Below, in pieces: positions 9,363 to 25,848 of a DNA stretch of 31,812 nt. Made by a program: the position numbers and the translations under genes. Position 1 is the first letter of the stretch, and every line of letters begins with the position of its first letter. The notes beneath the pieces are model-generated. The model had not been told where the DNA came from. It saw only the letters and a list, made by a program, of their open reading frames with translations, and searched no databases. Source of the stretch: a virus; IMG/VR virus record IMGVR_UViG_3300044530_000759, positions 1 to 31,812 of that record; one strand, 5' to 3'.

Positions 9363-12232
9363 TGTCAGATGTAATGCTTAAACTCACGCGCGACGACAAG
9401 TTCGTAATTCTGGACACGTTTCAGAACGACAGCATCGCGGTGAACAAATTATTCAGTGATGTAGAAACGTTTGAAACACGCGGCAGTTTCTCTCAGACGT
9501 TTAGAATACCACTCACCGCCAACAACGCAGAGTTCTTTGGCGCGGTTGATAATCCTAATTTCACATCGTTTGACTTTCAAACCAAGATTGAAGCGGAGTT
9601 ATGCGTCGGTACAATCCCGATTTACAACGGGTACTGTCAGATTAAGAAGGTGGTGAGCAAAGAAATGGTTGATACCGAGTTAGAGTTGATATTTTTTGCG
9701 GACACACCGAGCCTCACCGCTTCACTCAAGGAAAAAAAGATAAGTGAGTTATCCGCATTATCGTCACTTAACCACGAAATGACACACGCGAACGTGGTGT
9801 CACCACCCGCTAACACACTATGGACGCTTATAGAACGTGGACAGAAGTTTTCTCAAGACATTGAAACGCCATCCACCCGCCAAATATTCAACACGAATAC
9901 CCCGCTTTACGTTGGTGACTTGACGCCAGCGGTGAACGCGTTATTCCTTTGGAAAAAGATATTTGAGGAAGCGGGCTTTACTTACAATAGCACGTTCATA
10001 GATGACACCCTAGTGGATTATTGGATCGTGTTTAATAACTCAGAAGCGGTCAAAACAACACTTACGCCTGAGGCGGTTACGTTCGCGGTTACCAACGCGG
10101 CAGACTACGACTTCGACGCGCTAACTGGAACGGTGCTAAACCTAACGTCAGGCAACGGGTTTACCGAAGCGTTTGACAACGGCGGCAACGTGGTAGGCGG
10201 GGTATTTACCGCGCCGTATTACGCGCAGTTTACTTTTCGATTTTTGATTAAAGTTAAAAAGGCGACGGTAGGTACTGCGGCGAGTAGTTTGGGGGCAAGG
10301 CTTATTAACCCCACTACCAACGAGGTGCACATCGCGATCGACGGAACGAGCAACTACTCGTGTCTAGTGTATGAGGACGACACATTTTATACCTATCAAT
10401 TCACCAAGACCTACTTATTTAACGAGGGGGAAGAAGTAGCATTAGCCGTGCGCGTTCAAAACAACTTAACCAACGGTAACGGGTGGACGATTGAAGCAAG
10501 CAGCGGGTTTGAACTTGTCACCACTTCAACACCTATTCAAGGCGCGGATGTGGATATGAACGCGAATGCACCCGATTATAAGCAGGTGGACTTTATCCGA
10601 GATATGATTAAGGCGCATTACCTCGTGTTTGTGCCCGACATAAACGAACCGAAGAAAATAACGGTTGAACCGTTCTCTACTTACATAGGCAGTGGATCAA
10701 CACGCGACTGGACAAAACTTATTGAAGTAGGTAGAGATAAGGACATTGTAATCTACCCAACGTCTGACATCCAAAACAAGAACTTGAAGTTTACTTACAC
10801 GGCAGGCGGAGAATACTTGTCTGAGATATTCACCAAGCAAGGCAGCCGCGTGTATGGTCAAAAGGAAATCAACAACACAAGTAACGATTTTGCAACGGGT
10901 GAGAAACGGGTAGAACTTACGCTTCGCTCAACACCGTGTAATGAAATACCCGGCACGTCCATCCCTGTTCCTAAATTCGTGAACGAGTCAGGTGCGTACA
11001 TTGTGCCGGGCGCACGTATGCTTTACAGCGCGGGTACTGCTTCGATTGCTTTGTTTAACGAAGTGAGTGAGGCGGGGGAACTTACGGAAGTACCCATCCT
11101 ATCCCACTACTCAAACATTTTGCCGAGTGTTACCGACTACGATCTAAACTTCGCGCCTGAAACGGCACTGCAAGTTATTAACTCTAGTCCGTTCAACAAC
11201 CTATACAACTTGTACTATTCACGTTCTTACAACGAGTTATACAGTCCAGAGTCTAGGATAATGGAAGCTTACTTTAGTTTACCACTCACCGAGTTTAGGC
11301 AGCTACAGTTTAGCGACAAAATATTTATCAAAGACACCTACTGGCGGGTTCTTGAAATCGGTAGCTACTTTGTAGGTAGAACAGAACTAACGTTTATCAA
11401 GCTGGCTAAATTAGTGGGTGAGATACGCGAGTGTGAGTTTATTCCATACGCCATCACAACGGCGGGCAAGGTGCTATTTAGAAACGGCGCAGACGAGTCG
11501 GTTGCAGGAAACCAAACCTGCTGCACCCGTTACGGTTATCAATGGGATGCGGATAGAGGCGAGTGTTTTGCTTCGGCGTTAGGGGGTAGAGAAAGAACTC
11601 AGTTGCCATCACCGCAGGACGTCACCGCGTCACTCAGCAAAGGGTTCAACAACTCAGTGAGTGGTAGCAGTAACAACCCAATTATAACTGGCGATAACAA
11701 CACTATCGGTATCAACTCTCCAAATAGCGGGGTGCTAGGTAGTGGCAACGAGATAGCGGACGACGCGGGTACTACCCTAGTGGTCGGTCAAAGTGTCAAG
11801 GCGTTGCACTCAGGTGTTCACTACGGAAACTCTGAAACACCGATGCGCGCGCAAGGTGGTGTAATGATATTGCAGGGCGAGGGTGATTACACCGCTTCAA
11901 ACGACGGCATAGAAATTCAGTTTAATGGTAACAGACTGAATATTGACGATGGCAGCGTATGGGCTTGCGAATTATCGGTGGCACTTATCGACGGAGCAAG
12001 CAATCAGCACGCCGCTTCATTTGCTTTTATGATAAATAAGGACGGCACAAGTGGCGCAGGTACGGTTACCACCATCTTTCAGAACGGAGCGTTAAACACC
12101 ATATCTTTGAGCATTGACACGATTAGTGACACGGCGCAGCACCGTTTCAAAATAAACAGTGCGGGTGCTTCTGGCTATCCGTTTAATGACGTGAAAATTA
12201 GTGGCTCACTCAAATACACTCAAGTAAAATGA
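9362..12232 (+). CDS. Large tail-tip protein with adhesin-like C-terminus
   Basis: A 956-residue protein, the largest in the genome. The N-terminal 700 residues begin with LKLTRDDKFVILDTFQNDSI and contain segments typical of tail hub-like proteins of this phage group (ETRGSFSQTFRIPLTANNAEFF near 36-57). Around 745-800 there are Asn/Gly/Ser-rich repeats (SGSSNNPIITGDNNTIGI, NSGVLGSGNEI) like the head repeats of trimeric adhesins, then a 140-residue beta domain that may bind the receptor. There is a cysteine cluster (CCTRYGYQWDADRGEC) near 721-736. No hydrolase motif is recognised. Function is inferred from order and composition. Confidence 0.55.
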   Translation: MSDVMLKLTRDDKFVILDTFQNDSIAVNKLFSDVETFETRGSFSQTFRIPLTANNAEFFGAVDNPNFTSFDFQTKIEAELCVGTIPIYNGYCQIKKVVSKEMVDTELELIFFADTPSLTASLKEKKISELSALSSLNHEMTHANVVSPPANTLWTLIERGQKFSQDIETPSTRQIFNTNTPLYVGDLTPAVNALFLWKKIFEEAGFTYNSTFIDDTLVDYWIVFNNSEAVKTTLTPEAVTFAVTNAADYDFDALTGTVLNLTSGNGFTEAFDNGGNVVGGVFTAPYYAQFTFRFLIKVKKATVGTAASSLGARLINPTTNEVHIAIDGTSNYSCLVYEDDTFYTYQFTKTYLFNEGEEVALAVRVQNNLTNGNGWTIEASSGFELVTTSTPIQGADVDMNANAPDYKQVDFIRDMIKAHYLVFVPDINEPKKITVEPFSTYIGSGSTRDWTKLIEVGRDKDIVIYPTSDIQNKNLKFTYTAGGEYLSEIFTKQGSRVYGQKEINNTSNDFATGEKRVELTLRSTPCNEIPGTSIPVPKFVNESGAYIVPGARMLYSAGTASIALFNEVSEAGELTEVPILSHYSNILPSVTDYDLNFAPETALQVINSSPFNNLYNLYYSRSYNELYSPESRIMEAYFSLPLTEFRQLQFSDKIFIKDTYWRVLEIGSYFVGRTELTFIKLAKLVGEIRECEFIPYAITTAGKVLFRNGADESVAGNQTCCTRYGYQWDADRGECFASALGGRERTQLPSPQDVTASLSKGFNNSVSGSSNNPIITGDNNTIGINSPNSGVLGSGNEIADDAGTTLVVGQSVKALHSGVHYGNSETPMRAQGGVMILQGEGDYTASNDGIEIQFNGNRLNIDDGSVWACELSVALIDGASNQHAASFAFMINKDGTSGAGTVTTIFQNGALNTISLSIDTISDTAQHRFKINSAGASGYPFNDVKISGSLKYTQVK

Positions 12233-12429: not shown

Positions 12430-14358
12430 ATGGCTACATCAAATCTTGATATAAAAGTAACGGGAGTCGGTGACCTTGACAAAGCCACGCAAGCGATCAA
12501 CAACGGCGCGGGTTCGGTTACTAATTTAAAGACTCAGCTGCGAACTCTCCAACAAGAGTTACAAACGCTCGATCCGTCAAGTGATAAGTTTATTCAACTG
12601 TCACAACAAGCGGGTGAGCTACGTGATAAAATTAAAGACACTTCGGAAGCAGTCAACGCGAATGCTGGTCCTGCCTTTGAACGTCTTGGAAATAATGCGT
12701 CGTTACTTACATCAAAGCTAGGTTCTCTTGATTTCGGGGGCGCAGCTGAAAGCGTTAAGGCACTCGCGGCAAACGTCAAAGGAGTTGACTTTAAAACACT
12801 AGGGGCTGAGATTGGAACATTTGGTAAGTCGCTGCTATCGCTTGGAAAAGCACTACTCGCAAACCCGATATTTTTATTAGCTGCCGCCGTTGCTGCTATC
12901 ATTGTCAACTTTGATACGCTGATTAAAATTATACCCGGATTGAACGGGCTGCTTACGGGAGTTACCGACGAGTTAGCTGCCGCCGTTATTAACAGTGAGA
13001 AGTTGACTGCAGAAGCTAAAGCACAGCTTGAGGCAACAACGGCAAGCGAAAACTCATTAAAACTTAGAGGGTTAAGTGAGAGAGAGATATTAGGGTTAAA
13101 GAAGTTGCAAACCGACGAGGTTATAAATTCTTTGAAGGCTCAACAGTCGTTGCAGGATCAAATAACTATGTCGCAGATTGAAACAGCTAAACGAAACCGT
13201 GACATCCTAGCAGGCGTGCTTGAGTTTATTGCTATTCCTATTCGCGCCTTACTCACTCAAATTGACTTAGTAGGTGAAGCAGTCGGGCAAGAGTTTGGTT
13301 TAGTTGAGAAATTTCAAAGCGGCGTCAAGTCGATTGCAGAACTCGCGTTTAACCCAGATGAGATTTTAGCAAAAGCAAAAGAAACACGCGCGGCAACTGA
13401 TAAGGAAATTCAAGGATTAATTAATGCACGCGACGGATATCAAATACAACTTACCGCGATAGACCGTAGAGGCGCGGAAGAACGCGACAAGCTGGCTAAA
13501 TCGGAAGCAGACAAAAGAAAAAAGGAGCAAGAAGAACTCGCTAAAAACGCCGAGGAAATTAGCGATATTATAAGACAGTTAGAGGAGCAGACTGCTGAGG
13601 AAGAACGTAAGGCACAGTTTGAAGCTAACCAACGACGTCTAAAGCAGGAAGAAGATTATTATAACCTTTTCAACGAACTAACTCAAACGGAGCAAGAAAA
13701 AGAAATAGCAGCACTCACGGCGGCATACGACGAAAAGTTTTTACTAGCACAAGGCAATGCCGACCTAGAAAAACTACTTGCTGAAAAGCAGGGCGAGGAC
13801 ATTGCCAAGATTAACGAGAAGTACGCAAAAACAGAAAAAGAAAAACAACGCGATCTTCAACGTCAAAAAATTGAACTAGCGGGTAGTGCTATTGACGCGC
13901 TAATCCAGCTTAACGATGCGTTCGCGGGTTCGTCTGAGAAGTCAGCGCGTAAAGCCTTTGCAATCAACAAGGCATTGTCACTTGTTCAAGCACTTCAAAA
14001 CACCTATCTAGGTGCTACATCCGCGTTCGCTCAAACACCCGGCGGCATCGGTATTAAAATAGCCGCGGCGTCTATCGCAGTGGCAGCAGGTCTAGCCAAC
14101 GTTGCGCGTATTGCACGCTCTAAATTTGAACCAAGTGGTGGTGGCGGCGGTGAAACGGGTGGAGGTGGTGCACCGAGTATTAGTAATGGTGGAGGTGGTG
14201 CGGTAGCGGATGCTAGTACACCGCAGTTTAGCGCGCTGAATACGGGCTTTTTGCAAGGCGGCACACAGACACCGCCCGTGCAAGCCTATGTGCTTGGTCA
14301 AGACGTTGCAGATACGCTTCAAGCGAGCGAGAAAATACGGGATCAATCGACTTTGTAA
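12430..14358 (+). CDS. Tape measure protein
   Basis: A 642-residue largely helical protein. The start (LDIKVTGVGDLDKATQAIN, then a coiled coil to about 80) is typical of tape measures. A strongly hydrophobic segment lies at 141-169, as in tape measures that insert in the membrane for DNA entry. A long charged coiled coil (about 345-500, rich in EEERKAQFEANQRRLKQEE-type sequence) follows, then a second Ala-rich helical region and a Gly-rich stretch near 565-600. At about 1.5 angstrom per residue it predicts a tail near 95 nm. It is the last gene before a terminator and the first cargo cassette. Confidence 0.85.
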   Translation: MATSNLDIKVTGVGDLDKATQAINNGAGSVTNLKTQLRTLQQELQTLDPSSDKFIQLSQQAGELRDKIKDTSEAVNANAGPAFERLGNNASLLTSKLGSLDFGGAAESVKALAANVKGVDFKTLGAEIGTFGKSLLSLGKALLANPIFLLAAAVAAIIVNFDTLIKIIPGLNGLLTGVTDELAAAVINSEKLTAEAKAQLEATTASENSLKLRGLSEREILGLKKLQTDEVINSLKAQQSLQDQITMSQIETAKRNRDILAGVLEFIAIPIRALLTQIDLVGEAVGQEFGLVEKFQSGVKSIAELAFNPDEILAKAKETRAATDKEIQGLINARDGYQIQLTAIDRRGAEERDKLAKSEADKRKKEQEELAKNAEEISDIIRQLEEQTAEEERKAQFEANQRRLKQEEDYYNLFNELTQTEQEKEIAALTAAYDEKFLLAQGNADLEKLLAEKQGEDIAKINEKYAKTEKEKQRDLQRQKIELAGSAIDALIQLNDAFAGSSEKSARKAFAINKALSLVQALQNTYLGATSAFAQTPGGIGIKIAAASIAVAAGLANVARIARSKFEPSGGGGGETGGGGAPSISNGGGGAVADASTPQFSALNTGFLQGGTQTPPVQAYVLGQDVADTLQASEKIRDQSTL

Positions 14359-14378
14359 GCATAAAAAAACCGCCTTTG
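14359..14378 (+). repeat. 20-base repeat, intact copy (with terminator arm)
   Basis: These 20 bases recur exactly at 15401-15420. Here they include the left arm of the terminator that closes the tape measure gene; at the other copy the right arm is gone. Confidence 0.85.
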
Positions 14379-14390
14379 TGGGGCGGTTTT
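14366..14390. terminator. Bidirectional terminator after the tape measure gene
   Basis: AAAACCGCC at 14366-14374 pairs with GGCGGTTTT at 14382-14390 around a 7-base loop, with A and T runs on the two sides, so it can serve both the + strand tail genes and the - strand gene at 14405-14632. Confidence 0.85.
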
Positions 14391-14404
14391 AAAATTGTTT
14401 GGCA

Positions 14405-14632
14405 TTATTTCTTTTTATGTTTTTCAAACCATTCGTCTAACGTGCAAGGTTCTTTTTTGAATAATTCAATAGTGTGCTCTACTAAGATGTTGTAAACCTC
14501 TTCCTTGCTATACATTTTTTCAATTTGTTTATCTCTATCTTCTAAAGCCTTTTCCAAGCTAGCTAAAATTCTTTTTGTGTTTTTGAGTTCGATTTCCATT
14601 AAGCCGAACTCTAGTGTGTCGTTGTTTTTCAT
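14405..14632 (-). CDS. Small coiled-coil cargo protein
   Basis: A 75-residue minus-strand protein placed inside the plus-strand structural genes, with its own promoter (14660-14688) and a bidirectional terminator. It is a charged helix for most of its length, with a coiled coil at about 12-42 (LKNTKRILASLEKALEDRDKQIEKM), followed by MYSKEEVYNILVEH and a C-terminal LDEWFEKHKKK. The MYSKEEV plus EWFEKHK pattern is common in small phage proteins of Bacteroidota; no function is known. The orientation and flanks mark it as an accessory gene (moron). Confidence 0.65.
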   Translation of the reverse strand: MKNNDTLEFGLMEIELKNTKRILASLEKALEDRDKQIEKMYSKEEVYNILVEHTIELFKKEPCTLDEWFEKHKKK

Positions 14633-14659
14633 TGTCTTAATTATTTATTTGTTACCCTA

Positions 14660-14688
14660 CAAATATACAAAACCTCACATCACTACAA
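14660..14688 (-). promoter_or_regulatory. Promoter of the minus-strand cargo gene
   Basis: Read on the minus strand: TTG (complement of 14686-14688), 18 bases, then TATATTTG (complement of 14660-14667). This fits the Bacteroidota consensus and lies 28 bases before the start of 14405-14632. Confidence 0.65.
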
Positions 14689-14705
14689 AATTGTTTATAA
14701 CTATA

Positions 14706-14735
14706 TTGCAACACATTTGATAAATATTATCTATA
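14706..14735 (+). promoter_or_regulatory. Late-type promoter before the protease gene
   Basis: TTG at 14706-14708, 19 bases, then TATCTATA at 14728-14735, 5 bases before the ATG at 14741. Both boxes and their spacing are conserved in the copy at 15986-16015. The very short leader is unusual and fits an A-rich, SD-less start. Confidence 0.6.
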
Positions 14736-14740
14736 AGGAT

Positions 14741-15319
14741 ATGGAAAAGAAGCAAGTTAAACAGATGGTAATGGACGAAAACGGAAACCTCGGTGTTTAC
14801 GCGATTTCGTTCGTGGATATGCCAGCGATAGAAAGTGATTTCGTGTTTCTCAGTAAACAACACATTCAGCTAGAAAACACCAACGAGGAAAAACGGATGG
14901 TGTACGGCGCGGTGTTAATACCCGACAAACTAATACTCAGGGCGGGCAAGGACGGGGAAGATGACTATTACATCCAGTTCCCCAAAGAAACCGTGAGGGC
15001 GGCTGCTTATGCGTTTATGAAGCAAGGCAATCAACACGAACACACGCTTCAACACGCTATGAAAGTGGCGGGATGCACAGTTGTAGAGTCTTGGATCAAA
15101 GAAGCGGACGACGATAAAAGCAAGGCTTTAACTATTGACGTTCCTGTTGGCACTTGGCTAGTAGGCATCAAGGTTGATAACGACTCAGTGTGGGAGCAGG
15201 TGAAAGCGGGGGAAGTGAAAGGGTTTAGCATCGAGGGCTTTTTTGACACGATGGAAAAAATGTCAAGTTTAGAGAGTCAAATTCTAGAAGAAGCGCGTAC
15301 ATTTGTGCAATCTATGTAA
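14741..15319 (+). CDS. Prohead protease-like protein (XkdF family)
   Basis: A 192-residue protein. The ATG at 14741 is used because an earlier TTG at 14717 lies inside the promoter. The XkdF-type pattern is clear: MVYGAVLIPDKLILR (about 53-67), YYIQFPKETVRAAAYAFMK, an EHTLQHAMKVAGCTVVESWI segment (about 105-124), and VPVGTWLVGIKVDN followed by VKGFSIEGFF (about 137-170). XkdF domains are described as putative serine proteases that act in capsid maturation. The position before scaffold and capsid genes supports that. It is framed by the two cargo cassettes. Confidence 0.75.
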   Translation: MEKKQVKQMVMDENGNLGVYAISFVDMPAIESDFVFLSKQHIQLENTNEEKRMVYGAVLIPDKLILRAGKDGEDDYYIQFPKETVRAAAYAFMKQGNQHEHTLQHAMKVAGCTVVESWIKEADDDKSKALTIDVPVGTWLVGIKVDNDSVWEQVKAGEVKGFSIEGFFDTMEKMSSLESQILEEARTFVQSM

Positions 15320-15362
15320 CGCTAACTCTAGCGTATTCATACTTTAATTTTTATTTGTTCAG

Positions 15363-15388
15363 AGCGCGTCACAATGGTGGCGCGTTTT
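15363..15388 (+). terminator. Terminator after the protease gene
   Basis: AGCGCGTCAC at 15363-15372 pairs with GTGGCGCGTT at 15377-15386 (two wobble pairs) around a 4-base loop, followed by Ts. Confidence 0.7.
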
Positions 15389-15400
15389 GTTTTGGTAGAG

Positions 15401-15420
15401 GCATAAAAAAACCGCCTTTG
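15401..15420 (+). repeat. 20-base repeat, degenerate terminator copy
   Basis: Identical to 14359-14378, but the matching right arm of the terminator (GGCGGTTTT) is absent downstream. It marks the outer edge of the second cargo cassette. Confidence 0.8.
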
Positions 15421-15457
15421 AGTGGGCATAAAAATATTCTTCTGCTTTCATCGTGTG

Positions 15458-15913
15458 TTATTGTTTATTCCTAATTATTTCAATCAATTTTTTTATTTCA
15501 ATCAATCTTTTAAGACAAGCGAGTTCGGCTTCTTCGTGGGTTTTAAACGGGGTTTCTTCGGTATTAATCCATCCTTGTTCTACTCTTGAAGATAACGTTC
15601 CAATAGGCTTGATTTTAAAATATCCATAATAACCTAATATGCCAGCATCTATCGAAGTGTGTAGATTATGGTTTTCTCTAAACCATCTAAATGCTTGTTG
15701 GTATAGTGGTGCGATCACTATAAAGTCGTGAGAACTCAAATCATCAGTATTTTCTCTGCCTAATACCCATCCGCACATATTTTGGAAAGATCCGCTTGTT
15801 CCTTCCTTATCGTTATCTTCACAAATTTCATTATAAAAACCAAAACAAGGCTCATCAAAACCTAAGTCTCGAAGTTCTAGTGCAATGTTGTATGGTACAA
15901 ATTCTTTTTCCAT
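15458..15913 (-). CDS. Cargo protein of a family common in Bacteroidota phages
   Basis: A 151-residue minus-strand protein with its own promoter (15940-15968). The pattern FVPYNIALELRDLGFDEPCFGFYN at the start, IAPLYQQAFRWFRENHNL in the middle and EEAELACLKRLIEIKKLIE at the end is one I know from many genomes of this phylum, in phages and in mobile regions, without an assigned function. It is intact. Its placement between duplicated flanks, against the direction of the structural genes, marks it as a moron. It may act on the host or on competing phages. Confidence 0.65.
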   Translation of the reverse strand: MEKEFVPYNIALELRDLGFDEPCFGFYNEICEDNDKEGTSGSFQNMCGWVLGRENTDDLSSHDFIVIAPLYQQAFRWFRENHNLHTSIDAGILGYYGYFKIKPIGTLSSRVEQGWINTEETPFKTHEEAELACLKRLIEIKKLIEIIRNKQ

Positions 15914-15939
15914 AATTCAATTATTTATTTGTTACGCTG

Positions 15940-15968
15940 TAAATATAAAAACAATCCCCGACACTCAA
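15940..15968 (-). promoter_or_regulatory. Promoter of the second cargo gene
   Basis: Minus strand: TTG (complement of 15966-15968), 18 bases, then TATATTTA (complement of 15940-15947). The spacing is the same as in the other cassette. Confidence 0.6.
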
Positions 15969-15985
15969 AATTGTTAATAACTATA

Positions 15986-16015
15986 TTGTTTTACTTCTGA
16001 TAAATTCTATCTATA
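15986..16015 (+). promoter_or_regulatory. Late-type promoter before scaffold and capsid genes
   Basis: TTG at 15986-15988, 19 bases, then TATCTATA at 16008-16015, 23 bases before the ATG at 16039. The boxes are identical to those at 14706-14735. Confidence 0.6.
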
Positions 16016-16038
16016 ACAGAAGTAACAATACTAGTAAA

Positions 16039-16641
16039 ATGAAAAAAGAACAAGTAATCGGGGGTTTTAACGCGATCTTGGAGAAAGCAGGCGCGAAGTT
16101 CCGCGTGGCTTTACAGAAAGAAGCCGTTAAAATGTCCGCAGAAACCAAGACGGTGGATGGCGTGGTAATCGCTACACCTGCCGACGCATTCGCGGAAGGC
16201 GTCGAAGTTTTCGTAATTCCTGAGGACGGCTCTGAACCAATCGTTGCACCCGACGGTGACCACACGCTTGAAAGCGGTGAAGTCGTGACGGTAGCAGATG
16301 GTAAAGTCGTAGCAATTATGGCTAAGCCTGAGGAAACCGAAATGAGCGACGAAATCAAAGAGGTGGTACAAAACCTTTCAGATCGCATCGCGGTACTCGA
16401 AGGTCAAAACACCGAAGCGACAACCGAGTTATCGGCGGTGAAGTCTGAGAACGACACGCTCAAAACGGAACTAGCAAAGTTAAAAGCCGAAAACGCTAAA
16501 CTTTCAAAAGCACCTGCGGCGAAGTCGGTTAAAGAAACTACCGAACTAAGCAAGGAAAAAGAAAAAACAACCGAGAAGCCTAAGAAGTCATTTAAACAAA
16601 TGACCTACCTAGAGCGCATCGAAGCACAATCAAGTAACTAA
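16039..16641 (+). CDS. Putative capsid scaffolding protein
   Basis: A 200-residue acidic protein between the protease and the major capsid gene, the usual place for scaffold. Residues about 36-95 contain beta segments of a turn-rich repeat type (GDHTLESGEVVTVADGKVVAI). Residues about 104-155 form a coiled coil (LSDRIAVLEGQNTEATTEL and continuing heptads). The end is a Lys/Glu-rich tail with KKSFKQMTYLERIEAQ. Coiled-coil scaffolds with a basic C-terminus that contacts the capsid protein are typical. No enzymatic motif is visible. The assignment is from position and composition. Confidence 0.65.
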   Translation: MKKEQVIGGFNAILEKAGAKFRVALQKEAVKMSAETKTVDGVVIATPADAFAEGVEVFVIPEDGSEPIVAPDGDHTLESGEVVTVADGKVVAIMAKPEETEMSDEIKEVVQNLSDRIAVLEGQNTEATTELSAVKSENDTLKTELAKLKAENAKLSKAPAAKSVKETTELSKEKEKTTEKPKKSFKQMTYLERIEAQSSN

Positions 16642-16659: not shown

Positions 16660-17565
16660 ATGGCAACAACAACATCTTTAACTACGTCCTACGCGGGTAA
16701 ATACGCGGGGGATTACATTCGTAAAGCGTTTCTCGCTAACGAAACTTTGCAGCACATCACTGTAAAAGAAAACATCGATTACAAACAAGTGGTAAAGCGT
16801 TTGGTAGACGATGTGACATTTGCTGCTCCAACGTGTGACTTCACACCAACTGGAACAGTAACAATCACTGAGCGTATTCTTACGTTGGAAAAATTCCAAG
16901 TACACCGTGAACTTTGTAAAAAAGATTTTCTTGCAGACTGGGCAGCTAACGACGCTCAGAACGGACGCTTAGAGCCAGCACTCGTTGAAACAGTTATCAA
17001 AAATATGCTTGCTGCAATCGCTGCTAAAAACGAAACTGTGATTTGGCAGGGTGTCAACGCAACAACTGGTGAATACGATGGTTTCGAAACATTGTTTGCG
17101 GCTGACGCAACAGTAATCGACGCATCATCTGACGCGGCACTTACAACTTCAAACATCCTTGCGAAGATTGAAGAAATCGTTGGTCTTATGCCAACAGCTG
17201 TAAAACGTTCTACTGAAAAGCCAGTGTTGTATATGAGCAACAAGGCGATGGAAGCATACGTGAACAAGCAAGCTAGCTTGGGTAACGGGTTCTTCTACAA
17301 CTCAGGTGACGCAATCAACCTTACTTGGAACGGTATGTACCAAATGGCGGTTTGTCCGGGTATGTCTGACGACACCATCGTGTTCGCGCAGCCATCTAAC
17401 CTTTGGTTCGGTACTAACCTTCTAAACGATTGGAACAACATCGCGGTGAAGGATATGGAAGAAAGCGACCTTTCTGATAACGTACGTTTCAAGGCAGCGT
17501 TCTTCGCGGCAGTTCAGTACGGGTTCGGAAGCGAAATCGTATTCTACAAGTACGAAGCTGAGTAA
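16660..17565 (+). CDS. Major capsid protein (HK97-like fold expected)
   Basis: A 301-residue protein directly after the scaffold gene. The pattern fits major capsid proteins of Bacteroidota siphophages: TSYAGKYAGDYIRKAF near the N-terminus, a long backbone helix region (about 95-130, ETVIKNMLAAIAAKNETVIW), and the end with VRFKAAFFAAVQYGFGSEIV. Codon use differs from its neighbours: more GCT, CGT and TTG-type codons, consistent with high expression. A terminator 25 bases later fits a separate, abundant transcript. Confidence 0.8.
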   Translation: MATTTSLTTSYAGKYAGDYIRKAFLANETLQHITVKENIDYKQVVKRLVDDVTFAAPTCDFTPTGTVTITERILTLEKFQVHRELCKKDFLADWAANDAQNGRLEPALVETVIKNMLAAIAAKNETVIWQGVNATTGEYDGFETLFAADATVIDASSDAALTTSNILAKIEEIVGLMPTAVKRSTEKPVLYMSNKAMEAYVNKQASLGNGFFYNSGDAINLTWNGMYQMAVCPGMSDDTIVFAQPSNLWFGTNLLNDWNNIAVKDMEESDLSDNVRFKAAFFAAVQYGFGSEIVFYKYEAE

Positions 17566-18410: not shown

Positions 18411-18744
18411 GGGTAGAACGTACTTTACCGAGGCGTTCACACACTACCTATTTATTTTGCAGTATGAGGATAACACTAAAACCTCAAACAACCGTTTAGC
18501 TCAGGTGGCTACCATCGTGAGCGAGAACGAAAGAAACACCGAGCTGACGGTTACAACTGTCGGACTCGAATACTCAGGTGATTATTTTTACACCGTGTAC
18601 GGCCAGAATAGCGCATCCAATACCAACCCGTTAAACGCGGCGGTGGTGGGTGAGGTAGAACAAGGACGTGCAATAATTTTGAAAGATGGAGAACAACCAA
18701 CATACGCAGCCACAACAAGCCCCGAAATCATCTACCATAAGTAG
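18355..18744 (+). CDS. Beta-rich structural-region protein of unknown function
   Basis: A 129-residue protein. The start at 18355 (MIYLNHNAANQQINLTLNEG) is preferred to an upstream in-frame start at 18286 because the extra residues are only the out-of-frame reading of the preceding gene. The rest is beta-rich with repeated Tyr and Thr strands (YFYTVYGQNS). It overlaps the portal gene by 59 bases at its end. Possibly a minor head or neck component; no motif decides. Confidence 0.55.
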   Translation: MIYLNHNAANQQINLTLNEGRTYFTEAFTHYLFILQYEDNTKTSNNRLAQVATIVSENERNTELTVTTVGLEYSGDYFYTVYGQNSASNTNPLNAAVVGEVEQGRAIILKDGEQPTYAATTSPEIIYHK

Positions 18745-20485
18745 TATTGAATCTATTTCAATGCAACGCTATGAGGCGGTTAGTACGGTTGAAACAGAAA
18801 ACAAAAAGGGGTGGGTGGACTACGGTATTGATAACCTATACCCTCAGTACCTAATTGACCTCTACTATTCAGCCCCCATCCACAACGCGCTGACCAACTC
18901 CATCATTGAAATGATTGCGGGGAAGGGCTTGTACGGGGACGCGGCGGGTGAAGCATTACTAAAGCAATGGAAGATAAATAGACAAAATCGCTCTATTGCT
19001 TCTGACCTTAAAATGCAGGGTGGCTATTGGCTTGAAGTTATCCTGAGTATGGATAAGAAAAGCGTCGCACGCGTCAATCACTTGCCGTTTGAAAACTGCA
19101 GAATTGCTTTTTCAGAGGAGAGAGAGGAAATAACGGGCGTGTGGTATTCACGCGATTGGAATGACACGAGAAAAGCTAGAAACAAGCCCGAATACATCCC
19201 GCTATTTGAGGCTATGCCTGACGCATCAAATGAAAACGCGGTGGTAAAATATTGCACATACACATTCCGTCAAACGGTGGGAAGTAGTTACTATCCTAAA
19301 CCCGACTACATCGGTTCACTAAACTGGATAGAGCTACAAAGACAGATAGCAATTTACCACGTTAACAATATAATGAACGGGTTTTTCCCGTCGATCATCG
19401 CGCAGTTTAACAACGGTCAACCTGATCCTGAAAAAGCAACACAGATTGTCCGTGACTTTGAGCGCAAAATGAGCGGCGCGGTAAACGCGGGAAAACTGAT
19501 TGCGTTATTCAACGATAACAAAGACGCGGCGGCTACTTTTGAAACGTTCCCGCTTACCGACGCGGATAAGCAGTACGCACTACTAAGTGAGGAGTCAAGA
19601 GAAAACACCCTGATCGCTCACCGCGTTACTACGCCGCTACTATTCGGGGTTAGAGATGGGGGTGGTTTAGGTAGCAATACCGATGAAATGAAAGTGGGGC
19701 TTGAAATCTTTACAGAAAAAGTCATTAAGCCTTACCAACAAATGATTGTTGAGTCACTCGAATACATCGCGCAAATTGCGGGTGTTCCTGCTACTTTCAG
19801 TTACGTAGAAGAAACGGAAATACAAGCGACTGAATTAAAAAAAAAAGTCTGTTGTAGCTTAGAAAAGTCTAAAAACGACTTTAACGACGAAAACGCTATT
19901 GAGTACCTTAACGGCGTTGCCGAGGAAATAGACCTTGAGGAGTGGGAGGAATACGACGCGGATATCGAGGCGCAAGCCTGCTCTACCATTGAGGAAGAAA
20001 ACGAGTACCTTAGAAAACTGAGTGAAAAAGTTACTTCAATGGCTGCTAATCCGGGTGAGTTTGTGAAGCCTGATGATTACAGCAAATGGGGCGACACGGG
20101 GCTGTACAAGGTTCGTTATGCTTACTCAGAAAATATCAGTGCGGACAGCCGTCAATTCTGTAAACAGATGGTGGCACTTGCACAAGCAGGCAAGGTTTTC
20201 AGATACGAAGATATTATAGCAATGGGAAGGGCAGGCGTCAATAAAGATTTTGCACCTGAAGGCGAAGAAACCTACAATATTTTTGAGTGGAAAGGCGGGG
20301 CGTTCTGTCATCATTATTTTAAACGAAAGATTTATTTTCGCAAACGTCAAGGCGGTAAATTTTTACCAAACGACGGGCTTAAAAACGACCAACTAGTGGG
20401 TAACAACCCGTTCGTTGTTCAAAAAGGTTTTGAAGGGGTAGCACCAATTAACACACCAACGCGCGGATCACTTAAATACGGATAA
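18686..20485 (+). CDS. Portal protein with C-terminal head-morphogenesis-like domain
   Basis: A 599-residue protein. The first 430 residues match portal proteins of this phage group: a WVDYGIDNLYPQYLIDLYYSAPIHNAL segment (about 42-68), a long central domain with NIMNGFFPSIIAQFNNGQPD, and VTTPLLFGVRDGGGLGSNTDE (about 311-331), a conserved-looking stretch before the stem helices. Residues about 470-599 form a separate domain (YAYSENISADSRQFCKQMV, then FAPEGEETYNIFEWKGGAFCHHYF and KIYFRKRQGGKFLPN) that resembles the Cys/His-containing end of MuF-like minor head proteins. The portal ring would seat DNA at the capsid vertex. No separate MuF gene is present elsewhere. Confidence 0.8.
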   Translation: MENNQHTQPQQAPKSSTISSIESISMQRYEAVSTVETENKKGWVDYGIDNLYPQYLIDLYYSAPIHNALTNSIIEMIAGKGLYGDAAGEALLKQWKINRQNRSIASDLKMQGGYWLEVILSMDKKSVARVNHLPFENCRIAFSEEREEITGVWYSRDWNDTRKARNKPEYIPLFEAMPDASNENAVVKYCTYTFRQTVGSSYYPKPDYIGSLNWIELQRQIAIYHVNNIMNGFFPSIIAQFNNGQPDPEKATQIVRDFERKMSGAVNAGKLIALFNDNKDAAATFETFPLTDADKQYALLSEESRENTLIAHRVTTPLLFGVRDGGGLGSNTDEMKVGLEIFTEKVIKPYQQMIVESLEYIAQIAGVPATFSYVEETEIQATELKKKVCCSLEKSKNDFNDENAIEYLNGVAEEIDLEEWEEYDADIEAQACSTIEEENEYLRKLSEKVTSMAANPGEFVKPDDYSKWGDTGLYKVRYAYSENISADSRQFCKQMVALAQAGKVFRYEDIIAMGRAGVNKDFAPEGEETYNIFEWKGGAFCHHYFKRKIYFRKRQGGKFLPNDGLKNDQLVGNNPFVVQKGFEGVAPINTPTRGSLKYG

Positions 20486-23178: not shown

Positions 23179-24174
23179 TTAGTAAGTTCTTTGCGGTTCT
23201 GCGCCGTCAATCAGTAGGTAGATAGCCTCGCTTCCCCATCCTTTACCCTGCGCTGGCAATTCCTCAAACGTAGCCCAAAGGGTTGCGCCGTCGATGGTTT
23301 TATCATCTGAAATTACATAGGTTGGTGACTGGCTCACTACCTCGCTTGCGCCATACGCCGTGTTATTCACCGCGCCGTTGTATAATCTCCAACGCGTCAC
23401 GTGACCCGGATACTGCTTGTTGTAGCTTGTGATTTTGCCCGACGGTACTTGCTCAATACCATTGTAAAGCACGTGCATTGTAGCAGTGGTAACACCGCTG
23501 TTTCTCTCAAATGTCGCGTAGCACGCTGTTGAAACGATGTGTGTATCAGTATTGACGTTGGTGTCGATAATGTATCTTTCAGCAAGTAGCGAGTCTAGTT
23601 CATCGCGGGTGATGCCTAGCATTGCCGCCACCTCGGTAACTTTAAAGTTGGGATTTGATACGGTTGGTTTCAGTGACTTGCCACCTAGAATGATAACGCG
23701 CTCGCGGCGTACCGTCATTACCCAATCCTCAAACTTAAGCGGCTGCCCGTTTGCCGCTACGTTTCTACCGACGTTGGTGGTGATAGTCATTTCAGTGATA
23801 GCGCCACCGCCTGTGATATGCACTTTTGATCCAGCAAAGGTCACCTCAGTACCCGCCAAATATCCGTATTCGAGTACCGCGTTGTAACGCTCGTAACCAA
23901 ATAGGTAGTTATCTTCAGACTCAGAAGAAATCGCCACTTTCGGGTGGTTAATTCGCTGCTGAATCCAATTCAGAAAGTAACTGCGCGTGTTGTCTACCAC
24001 TTCCCTGAATTTTACCTCAGTAGTGACCGTTGGTTTGCCGTTCACTCGCTTGTCGTAGTTGAGCGTTTCCACGATGGTCACGTTCTTAGTGGTCTTGCTA
24101 GTGATTAGCCCGTCGAAAACTCCGATTGACTCTGGAAGTCTTAACGCCTCAAGCGTTGCTGCCGTGTTGTTCAT
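23179..24174 (-). CDS. Unknown 331-residue protein at the end of the minus operon
   Basis: A large protein without a domain I recognise. The first 160 residues are beta-rich with polar repeats (VTTEVKFREVVDNTRSYFLNW, GGGAITEMTITTNVG). Residues about 178-200 contain a short helical unit (VTEVAAMLGITRDELDSLL). The last part is rich in Tyr, Thr and Asn and ends in AIYLLIDGAEPQRTY. Its codon use (GC-richer, full of CGC and ACC) matches the structural genes more than the small early genes. It could be a structural protein that travels with the large terminase, or a secreted or DNA-binding protein. There is no signal peptide. Confidence 0.55.
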   Translation of the reverse strand: MNNTAATLEALRLPESIGVFDGLITSKTTKNVTIVETLNYDKRVNGKPTVTTEVKFREVVDNTRSYFLNWIQQRINHPKVAISSESEDNYLFGYERYNAVLEYGYLAGTEVTFAGSKVHITGGGAITEMTITTNVGRNVAANGQPLKFEDWVMTVRRERVIILGGKSLKPTVSNPNFKVTEVAAMLGITRDELDSLLAERYIIDTNVNTDTHIVSTACYATFERNSGVTTATMHVLYNGIEQVPSGKITSYNKQYPGHVTRWRLYNGAVNNTAYGASEVVSQSPTYVISDDKTIDGATLWATFEELPAQGKGWGSEAIYLLIDGAEPQRTY

Positions 24175-24206: not shown

Positions 24207-24473
24207 TTACTTACCGGCTACGTTTAGTATCTCTTTCTTGACTTCTTGATAAAATTTAATAGTACAATACGCGGCATAATGCTTTTTACCCTCCGTAAGT
24301 GTACCAAAGTTTTCAAGTATCTCGTCAACTGTCATTAACGCACATTGCTTGGCTTGATATAAATTCATTTCTGTGCAATCACAATATCTTTTATTTGGAA
24401 AATGCTCAATACCACAATGCTCCGTATTATACATTTTCTTTACTAACTCATCTGCCTTTTCTTTTGGAGTCAT
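24207..24473 (-). CDS. Small phage protein of a recurrent unknown family
   Basis: An 88-residue protein with four cysteines: one at residue 20 and two close together in the RYCDCTE segment at 29-35, plus one in the helix YQAKQCALMTVDEILEN (39-55). The MTPKEKADELVKKM start and the KQCALMTVDEI helix are common in small phage proteins of this phylum, with no known role. AT-rich codons and an AACAAATAAATAATTG leader set it apart from both neighbours, as if inserted between them. Confidence 0.6.
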   Translation of the reverse strand: MTPKEKADELVKKMYNTEHCGIEHFPNKRYCDCTEMNLYQAKQCALMTVDEILENFGTLTEGKKHYAAYCTIKFYQEVKKEILNVAGK

Positions 24474-24492: not shown

Positions 24493-25848
24493 TTATCTAA
24501 TCATATAATTACCACGGTTCGGGTATAACTCAAAGAACATCCGCATCATCATCGCGTCCGCGTAGTCTGGACTAAACGCATACTTGCTCTTTATCTCCGT
24601 TTTACCCACTACACTGAGCCGCGTGTCTTTATCCATATTAGCGCGCTTTATCGCTTCTAACTCTCTGATAATTCTACCCTTTAACTCCGTGTTTTCGCGC
24701 TCGAAATGTACGGCTATTTTTCCACTGCTGACAAAATTTGCGAGTAAAAAATAACACTCTGATTTAATGTTCGTGTAGGTTTTCGGTTGAGTGCTTGCTG
24801 ATCCGTTTTTAAAACCCGTGCAGCGCAGTGTGTCAACTACTCCCCCGCCTATACCATCTTCGTCGGCTAGTACGTTTTTAAGGTCAACCCCGTGTGTGTT
24901 CTTCAGTTCGCGGATAACATTTGCCACCTCGTCCACCCGTTTTTTTTCAAGGGTTACTATCTGAATAACGGCTAACCCATCCCACACTAGAATAACCGTT
25001 TTATCTTCACCTAGACGCGCAATGTCGGCAGTGATGTACTTCTTGCCCGTTGACGGTTCGGCGCGGAACATCGCGTTCAAGTCGCTAGTGAAAAACATTT
25101 TAGACACGTCGTCGTCAAACTCCCAGTTGCCGTACAAAAGTCGCTGCTGATCGTAGTCACTCATCCGTTTTAATTCGTCGATGTACGACTGCGGCAAGTG
25201 CGGGTTATCTTGTGGTAACGCTCGAATAAACGCGCGGTTACTTTTGAGTTCGTTATTTTTCCACGGCAAATAAAATTCATTGTACACCCACGTCTTGGAG
25301 GGGTTGCAAGTAAGTAGACCTTTTGGCGTCAACCCAAACTCGTTTAACTTGTAACGGCAACGAGAGGACACTACCGATACTGCACGCTCTGTGACTTGCG
25401 CCACCTCGTCAATAAAATAGTCTGTGATTTCAAGCGAACCGAGGCTGTCAAAATTCGGATCGCTAGGATAAAACTCTACATCTTTGAGTAATATCTCAGA
25501 GCCGTTGTAGAAATTAATCGTGCTTGAATTTTGGTTGTACTCAAACACTTTGCCCGCCTCTAAACCCCAGTCGGTTGTAATCTCAAAGAATGTTTTAAGG
25601 GTGGTCTCTTTGAGCGTCTTAAGCTGCGCCCTGCCAATAAGCCCGCGTGAACCCTCGTATTTTAATCTTCTCATTATTTGCCATTCGCAGCCTAACCTTG
25701 TCTTGCCTCCGCCTGCCGCGCCGCCGTAAAGCACCTGAGAAGTGATGGTGTTGTCCCGCGACAAAAGGGCTAATGACTCCTTTTGCCTAGGAAGCATCGT
25801 CGCGTACGGATCAATCTCTACGTTTCCAAATGTACTCAGGTCGTCCAT
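24493..25848 (-). CDS. terL: Terminase large subunit
   Basis: A 451-residue DNA packaging motor. Walker A is GGAAGGGKT at 42-50, Walker B is YFIDE at 144-148, and the LLTCNPS coupling-type motif is at 179-185. The RNase H-like nuclease domain follows, with acidic residues D275 (ITADIAR), D329/D331 (LADEDGIGGG) and D428/D431 (FSPDYADAMM). It pumps DNA through the portal and cuts the concatemer. It is encoded on the opposite strand from portal and capsid, at the end of the replication operon, and overlaps the wHTH gene before it by 38 bases. Confidence 0.95.
   Translation of the reverse strand: MDDLSTFGNVEIDPYATMLPRQKESLALLSRDNTITSQVLYGGAAGGGKTRLGCEWQIMRRLKYEGSRGLIGRAQLKTLKETTLKTFFEITTDWGLEAGKVFEYNQNSSTINFYNGSEILLKDVEFYPSDPNFDSLGSLEITDYFIDEVAQVTERAVSVVSSRCRYKLNEFGLTPKGLLTCNPSKTWVYNEFYLPWKNNELKSNRAFIRALPQDNPHLPQSYIDELKRMSDYDQQRLLYGNWEFDDDVSKMFFTSDLNAMFRAEPSTGKKYITADIARLGEDKTVILVWDGLAVIQIVTLEKKRVDEVANVIRELKNTHGVDLKNVLADEDGIGGGVVDTLRCTGFKNGSASTQPKTYTNIKSECYFLLANFVSSGKIAVHFERENTELKGRIIRELEAIKRANMDKDTRLSVVGKTEIKSKYAFSPDYADAMMMRMFFELYPNRGNYMIR

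Follow-up and report, generated by a model that had tools for sequence, protein, structure and literature searches.

Morons are usually explained as carrying a promoter and a terminator for themselves, and promoter-terminator cassettes of T4-type phages, denoted PeSL, have reportedly been described by Arbiol (2010) and Comeau (2014). The moron was defined in lambdoid and P22-like phages (PMC2629481, PMC1524935), and the ant moron of P22 affects transcription into the tailspike gene (PMC2629481). PeSL apparently unites an early promoter and a stem-loop in one composite intergenic motif, the copies of which would act as sites of homologous recombination and may help shuffling (PMC4503421).

The DNA analyzed here (the window, meaning the whole stretch) is a complete virus record, 31,812 bases long and bounded by direct end repeats of 127 bases. 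Megablast against annotated phages produced no match to the window; its nearest annotated relative is the cultured Nonlabens phage P12024S (L003), with a protease 44% identical to that of the window. In our reading, the locus between the tape-measure and scaffold genes holds two insertions of the moron type, both built on one regulatory frame, within the late (virion) operon of a tailed phage of Bacteroidota type; we assign this reading a probability of about 0.7.

Like the morons of lambdoid and P22-like phages, the inserts separate late genes that adjoin each other in relatives, deviate in GC content, and include a site where different phages carry different genes. A promoter of their own is predicted by consensus only (within chance for cargo 2), and a terminator hairpin is predicted for slot 1, with a decayed copy in slot 2. 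Unlike those morons, both inserts belong to the same late operon and are framed by homologous regulatory flanks, the flank includes a putative restart element for the interrupted operon, and the cargo is antisense. The locus resembles PeSL, as presented in PMC4503421, in that short repeated regulatory units with an early-type promoter and a stem-loop accompany accessory ORFs. The window differs from PeSL in that its predicted terminator and minus promoter are on opposite sides of the cargo, that the unit adds a plus-strand late restart element, and that the carrier is an unrelated small tailed phage (31.8-kb genome), with no T4-type core among the families found. Reversed genes also interrupt the late genes of P12024S, namely the minus-strand inserts gp04, gp07, gp40, gp43, and the gp50-gp59 block, and a copy of one late element follows each; the cargo is different, the junctions are mostly different, and the element sequence has diverged. 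We regard the window as a well-documented moron case, a variation on known morons whose unusual feature is the shared frame, and not as a new class of element.

Two reversed inserts with duplicated flanks

The plus-strand late genes comprise the tail tape-measure gene (12430..14358; PHROGs tape measure families, E 4.5e-15), the head maturation protease gene (14741..15319; Peptidase_S78_2, Pfam PF14550, E 4e-24), a scaffold-like gene (16039..16641; fused to that of the protease in P12024S, phrog_24921), the major capsid protein candidate (16660..17565; phrog_11320 and phrog_1623), and the portal gene (18686-20485); TerL (24493-25848) is encoded in a minus-strand block. Searches for RNA families and tRNAs found none in the window. 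The capsid gene is 84-89% identical in L251-L255, where protease, portal, scaffold, and tape-measure genes are only about 46-62% identical, which suggests that the capsid gene may have been exchanged horizontally; those of these contigs that reach the two junctions described below contain no minus-strand insert there.

As the earlier note had recorded, two minus-strand ORFs are embedded among these structural genes, at 14405-14632 (cargo 1, 75 aa) and 15458-15913 (cargo 2, 151 aa). The first belongs to slot 1, the whole insert between the tape-measure gene, whose stop codon borders it, and the protease gene (14359..14740); the second belongs to slot 2, which is bounded by the terminator of the protease gene and the restart element of the scaffold gene (15395..15965, bounds approximate). 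The GC content of the inserts is 30.1% and 34.0%, respectively, compared with 46% in the late genes, where segments of the length of cargo 1 show a standard deviation of 3.8 and a minimum of 36.8.

The outer flanks (plus strand, copy A at 14359-14378 and copy B at 15401-15420) are identical over 20 nt, and the inner flanks (copy A at 14639-14736 and copy B at 15919-16016) match without gaps at 74 of 98 positions, exactly the figure previously obtained by hand. None of 2000 dinucleotide shuffles exceeded 50, and apart from these two places the best 98-mer of the window reaches 48. The inner flank includes a 16-nt leader, the core of which, AACAAATAAA, is used genome-wide as a style of start site (20 sites vs 5.9 expected); without this leader, 58 of 82 positions are still identical, against a shuffle maximum of 41. 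The leader is found shortly 5' of many start codons on both strands (window 608, 2103, 24484, 26353, and others). The 18-base core of the outer flank occurs only at these two places in the window, even with up to 3 mismatches allowed. Given that the inner-flank copies differ at 24% of their positions, the duplication is not recent. The proposed duplication of a moron cassette applies to the flanks and not to the cargo genes, which are, as originally noted, unrelated to each other.

No other contig in IMG/VR carries the exact inner flank, and the exact outer flank was found in a single unrelated contig (L085, a terminator-like match) and in no relative. A lack of recurrence of the flanks elsewhere, named in the earlier note as a refutation, holds for the exact sequence but not for the architecture, which recurs in P12024S. 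Among other relatives with a gap of 60-160 nt between tape-measure and protease genes, no strong case of flank duplication was detected (lowest p 0.015, 25 loci).

Junctions and cargo genes in related phages

We surveyed the two junctions in 75 protease groups, of which 64 could be scored for tape measure-protease and 69 for protease-scaffold. The tape measure-protease junction is empty in 63/64 groups and occupied in one (by a plus-strand 83-aa ORF), so that slot 1 has the appearance of a lineage-specific second copy rather than a shared slot. The protease-scaffold junction, which is occupied by various genes in 20 groups and empty in the other 49 of 69, is a variable junction of the whole phage group. 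This survey excludes the case, raised in the earlier note, that all relatives carry the same two genes. In L012 and L013, the proteases of which are 64% identical to that of the window, the gap between tape-measure and protease genes is 2 nt, and the 181-nt gap between protease and scaffold genes contains a terminator-like hairpin and a restart element, with no gene. The absence of the inserts at these sites from most relatives suggests that they may be dispensable for virion formation or lysis.

The genes found in slot 2 include a minus-strand 350-aa gene related to window 23179-24174 (L021, L043, L052, L180), three minus-strand genes (L237), and minus-strand genes of 279 and 94 aa that follow a plus-strand gene (L038). 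In L005, eight minus-strand genes are present, including a DNA methylase next to the scaffold gene; the locus does not include the protease. A plus-strand gene of 683-689 aa occupies slot 2 in L182, L193, L200, L201, L206, L223, and L229; the one tested, that of L182, matches subtilase (Peptidase_S8). Two contigs, L191 (2332-3771) and L264, have an unusual gene order, with a minus-strand TerL between protease and scaffold. Single minus-strand inserts among the late genes of relatives are rare: four were found, two of them in P12024S. At another junction, L038 encodes a lone minus-strand 75-aa gene amid plus-strand genes (10161-10388), which by eye resembles P12024S gp07.

Protease and scaffold are fused in P12024S (179-1228) and separate in the other relatives surveyed, so that slot 2 does not exist in P12024S. 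This fusion, along with phrog_24921, raised the question of whether slot 2 arose by disruption of a fused protease-scaffold gene, which we rejected because the closer insert-free relatives have separate genes.

Homologues of cargo 1 are found in L010, L011, and L013, in all three between TerL and a 331-aa gene, a place occupied in the window by an 88-aa gene (24207..24473, minus strand; phrog_21441, 34% GC) with the same 5' leader as both cargo genes. The L011 gene is 91% identical to cargo 1 at the DNA level over 230 nt, which is exactly the ORF, with the flanks excluded; by comparison, the main aligned stretches of the capsid, portal, TerL, and 331-aa genes are 66-72% identical between the two genomes. 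As judged from these alignments, cargo 1 has relocated between genome sites. In L089, an array of small genes contains distant relatives of all three genes, cargo 1, cargo 2, and the 24207-24473 gene; this array, combined with the location of cargo 1 elsewhere in relatives, indicates that the cargo belongs to a common pool of small accessory genes, which are probably early. Cargo 2 belongs to phrog_25117, a phage family widespread in IMG/VR contigs and represented across a great diversity of phages, some of them with records of 462-642 kb.

The cargo proteins have no match in Pfam, NCBIfam, or PADLOC, and no profile match to solved structures better than E 0.056; when an AlphaFold model of cargo 2 (mean pLDDT 75) was compared with the PDB, no match surpassed E 2.1. 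We rejected a transposon or homing element, given that there are no inverted repeats at the insert ends and no match of the cargo to a recombinase or nuclease family. A defence or anti-defence cassette was also considered; PADLOC gave no match.

The earlier note interpreted the locus as a portable slot, through the very flanks of which related phages would swap cargo by homologous recombination. The unrelated cargo genes between homologous flanks speak for such exchange, albeit circumstantially, as do the presence of a 91% identical cargo 1 in a relative otherwise 66-72% identical and the differences in slot 2 genes among relatives. The analysis supports this proposal as regards the variation of genes between protease and scaffold and the mobility of cargo 1. 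Against exchange via the flanks, the exact flanks are absent from other viral contigs except for the one unrelated match, the homology of cargo 1 ends at the ends of the ORF, almost no relative has a filled slot 1, and no relative searched has another gene between the exact flanks of the window. With the exact flanks present in none of the relatives searched, no instance of homologous exchange was observed; such a route is reasonable, but we consider swapping through these very flanks unlikely.

Predicted terminators, promoters, and restart elements

In slot 1, the outer flank forms half of a predicted bidirectional terminator at 14366-14390 (-14.5 and -12.3 kcal/mol, z -3.3 and -3.8), and the identical 20 bases of slot 2 have lost hairpin folding (z -0.3 to -0.4). 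Immediately before this second copy, a putative terminator of the protease gene (15360..15389, plus strand; -20.1 kcal/mol, z -5.1) is present, which is unrelated to the shared 20-mer.

The inner flank resembles back-to-back promoters: TTTG-N18-TANNTTTG would serve the cargo, and a restart element would serve the plus-strand gene that comes next. This consensus is that of the primary sigma factor of Bacteroidota, and the predicted TAnnTTTG promoters of the window fit a Bacteroidota host (PMC6847099). The only match of the protease profile in the genome collection, a contig of a Flavobacteriaceae MAG (L250), is perhaps a phage contig binned with a flavobacterium and is the only direct hint at the host. 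The candidate promoter of cargo 1 (14660..14689, minus strand) matches the consensus exactly (TTTG-N18-TATATTTG, shuffle p 0.006), and that of cargo 2 (15940..15969, minus strand) has one mismatch (TTTG-N18-TATATTTA, shuffle p 0.12), so that the latter match alone is within chance. For slot 2 cargos, the consensus is also exact in L005 and in L038, with p about 0.001 in either case. It is lacking at the related 350-aa minus-strand genes of L021, L043, L052, and L180, which may be late genes.

The putative restart elements precede the protease gene (14686..14736, plus strand) and the scaffold gene (15966..16016, plus strand; the older site) and are 82% identical. Similar elements are found before the scaffold gene in relatives, in the forms TTCCGTTATA, TTGCTACTATA, or TTCTATTTATA, among others. 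Because insert-free relatives keep it, the element is not specific to insertion, and because it precedes the scaffold gene in relatives with and without inserts, the copy before the protease gene is probably the derived one; relatives such as L012 have no room for it there. At its distance of 2-25 nt to start codons, the plus-strand element might also act in translation or as an operator and not as a promoter.

Low GC content, empty sites in relatives, the consensus minus promoter, the terminator, and the restart element together support the view, already expressed in the earlier note, that accessory genes with what appear to be their own control signals were inserted against the structural genes. 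An alternative origin of the flanks, in which two morons separately brought or evolved like promoter pairs, so that common function rather than copying explains the likeness of the flanks, is compatible with the occurrence of the promoter consensus and the leader at many genes of this genome and with the similar plus-strand elements before the scaffold gene in many relatives. However, the ungapped match of 74 of 98 positions extends through the spacers and is far above the next best in the genome, and the exact outer flanks occur in the same order in both slots. Moreover, the two elements of the window are more similar to each other (44/55) than either is to that of L012 (42/62 for the slot 2 copy and 32/53 for the slot 1 copy). 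We therefore regard independent insertion as improbable. Finally, antisense regulation, whereby minus-strand transcripts tune the levels of the tape-measure, protease, and scaffold products and the ORFs are secondary, draws on the orientation of both inserts against the late direction and on a related idea stated for the P22 ant moron (PMC2629481), but appears highly implausible because the ORFs are members of conserved protein families that also occur at other sites and the slot 1 transcript is predicted to stop at the terminator before the tape-measure gene.

The association of reversed inserts with late elements is apparent in P12024S. The candidate late element of this phage, TTTTCGTTAATATA, occurs seven times, with up to 2 mismatches allowed (1.6 expected), and five of the copies (P12024S 163, 3015, 5396, 23945, 25185) are located exactly 2 nt before the ATG of a plus-strand gene. 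All five genes led by these copies, gp01, gp05, gp08, gp41, and gp44, immediately follow a minus-strand gene, which links late elements with reversed inserts in P12024S. With a spacing of 2 nt, a transcript would have to begin on the ATG or right beside it, and the element may have a translational or operator role instead. The single inserts gp04 and gp07 end in hairpin-like AAACCCC...GGGGTTTTT repeats followed by T runs, and TATATTTG is found upstream of gp04, gp07, and gp59.

A model of insertion into the late operon

Under the favored reading of two insertions in one frame, the order of the unit on the plus strand is a terminator, a minus-strand accessory gene, and a back-to-back pair of host-type promoter and restart element. 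The terminator would halt both late transcription and the cargo transcript, a promoter for the host sigma factor would drive the cargo, probably early, and the restart element would resume late transcription, so that the head genes are not starved by the insertion. We infer that the restart element before the scaffold gene is ancestral. The slot 2 copy is nearer to that of L012, and relatives such as L012 have no room for an element before the protease gene; the simplest history is thus one in which the frame was copied from slot 2 at the protease-scaffold junction to slot 1 at the tape measure-protease junction. The cargo would have been placed or replaced independently of the frame, with cargo 1 taken over as an exact ORF from, or shared with, a relative in the L011 lineage, in which its place is next to TerL.

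These observations suggest that insertion against an operon requires, beyond the promoter and terminator of the insert itself, a restart for the genes that are cut off, and that in this way spare genes can be added without cutting off essential downstream genes. The link between elements and inserts in P12024S, together with the duplicated frame of the window, makes the restart idea testable, and a candidate late-promoter element is gained for an uncharacterised group of Bacteroidota phages. More tentatively, and with less than even probability, a family of small phages might copy a self-insulating unit, consisting of a terminator, reversed cargo, and a host promoter with a late restart, between late-operon junctions within one genome, so that new junctions would accept accessory genes while the downstream virion genes are not starved.
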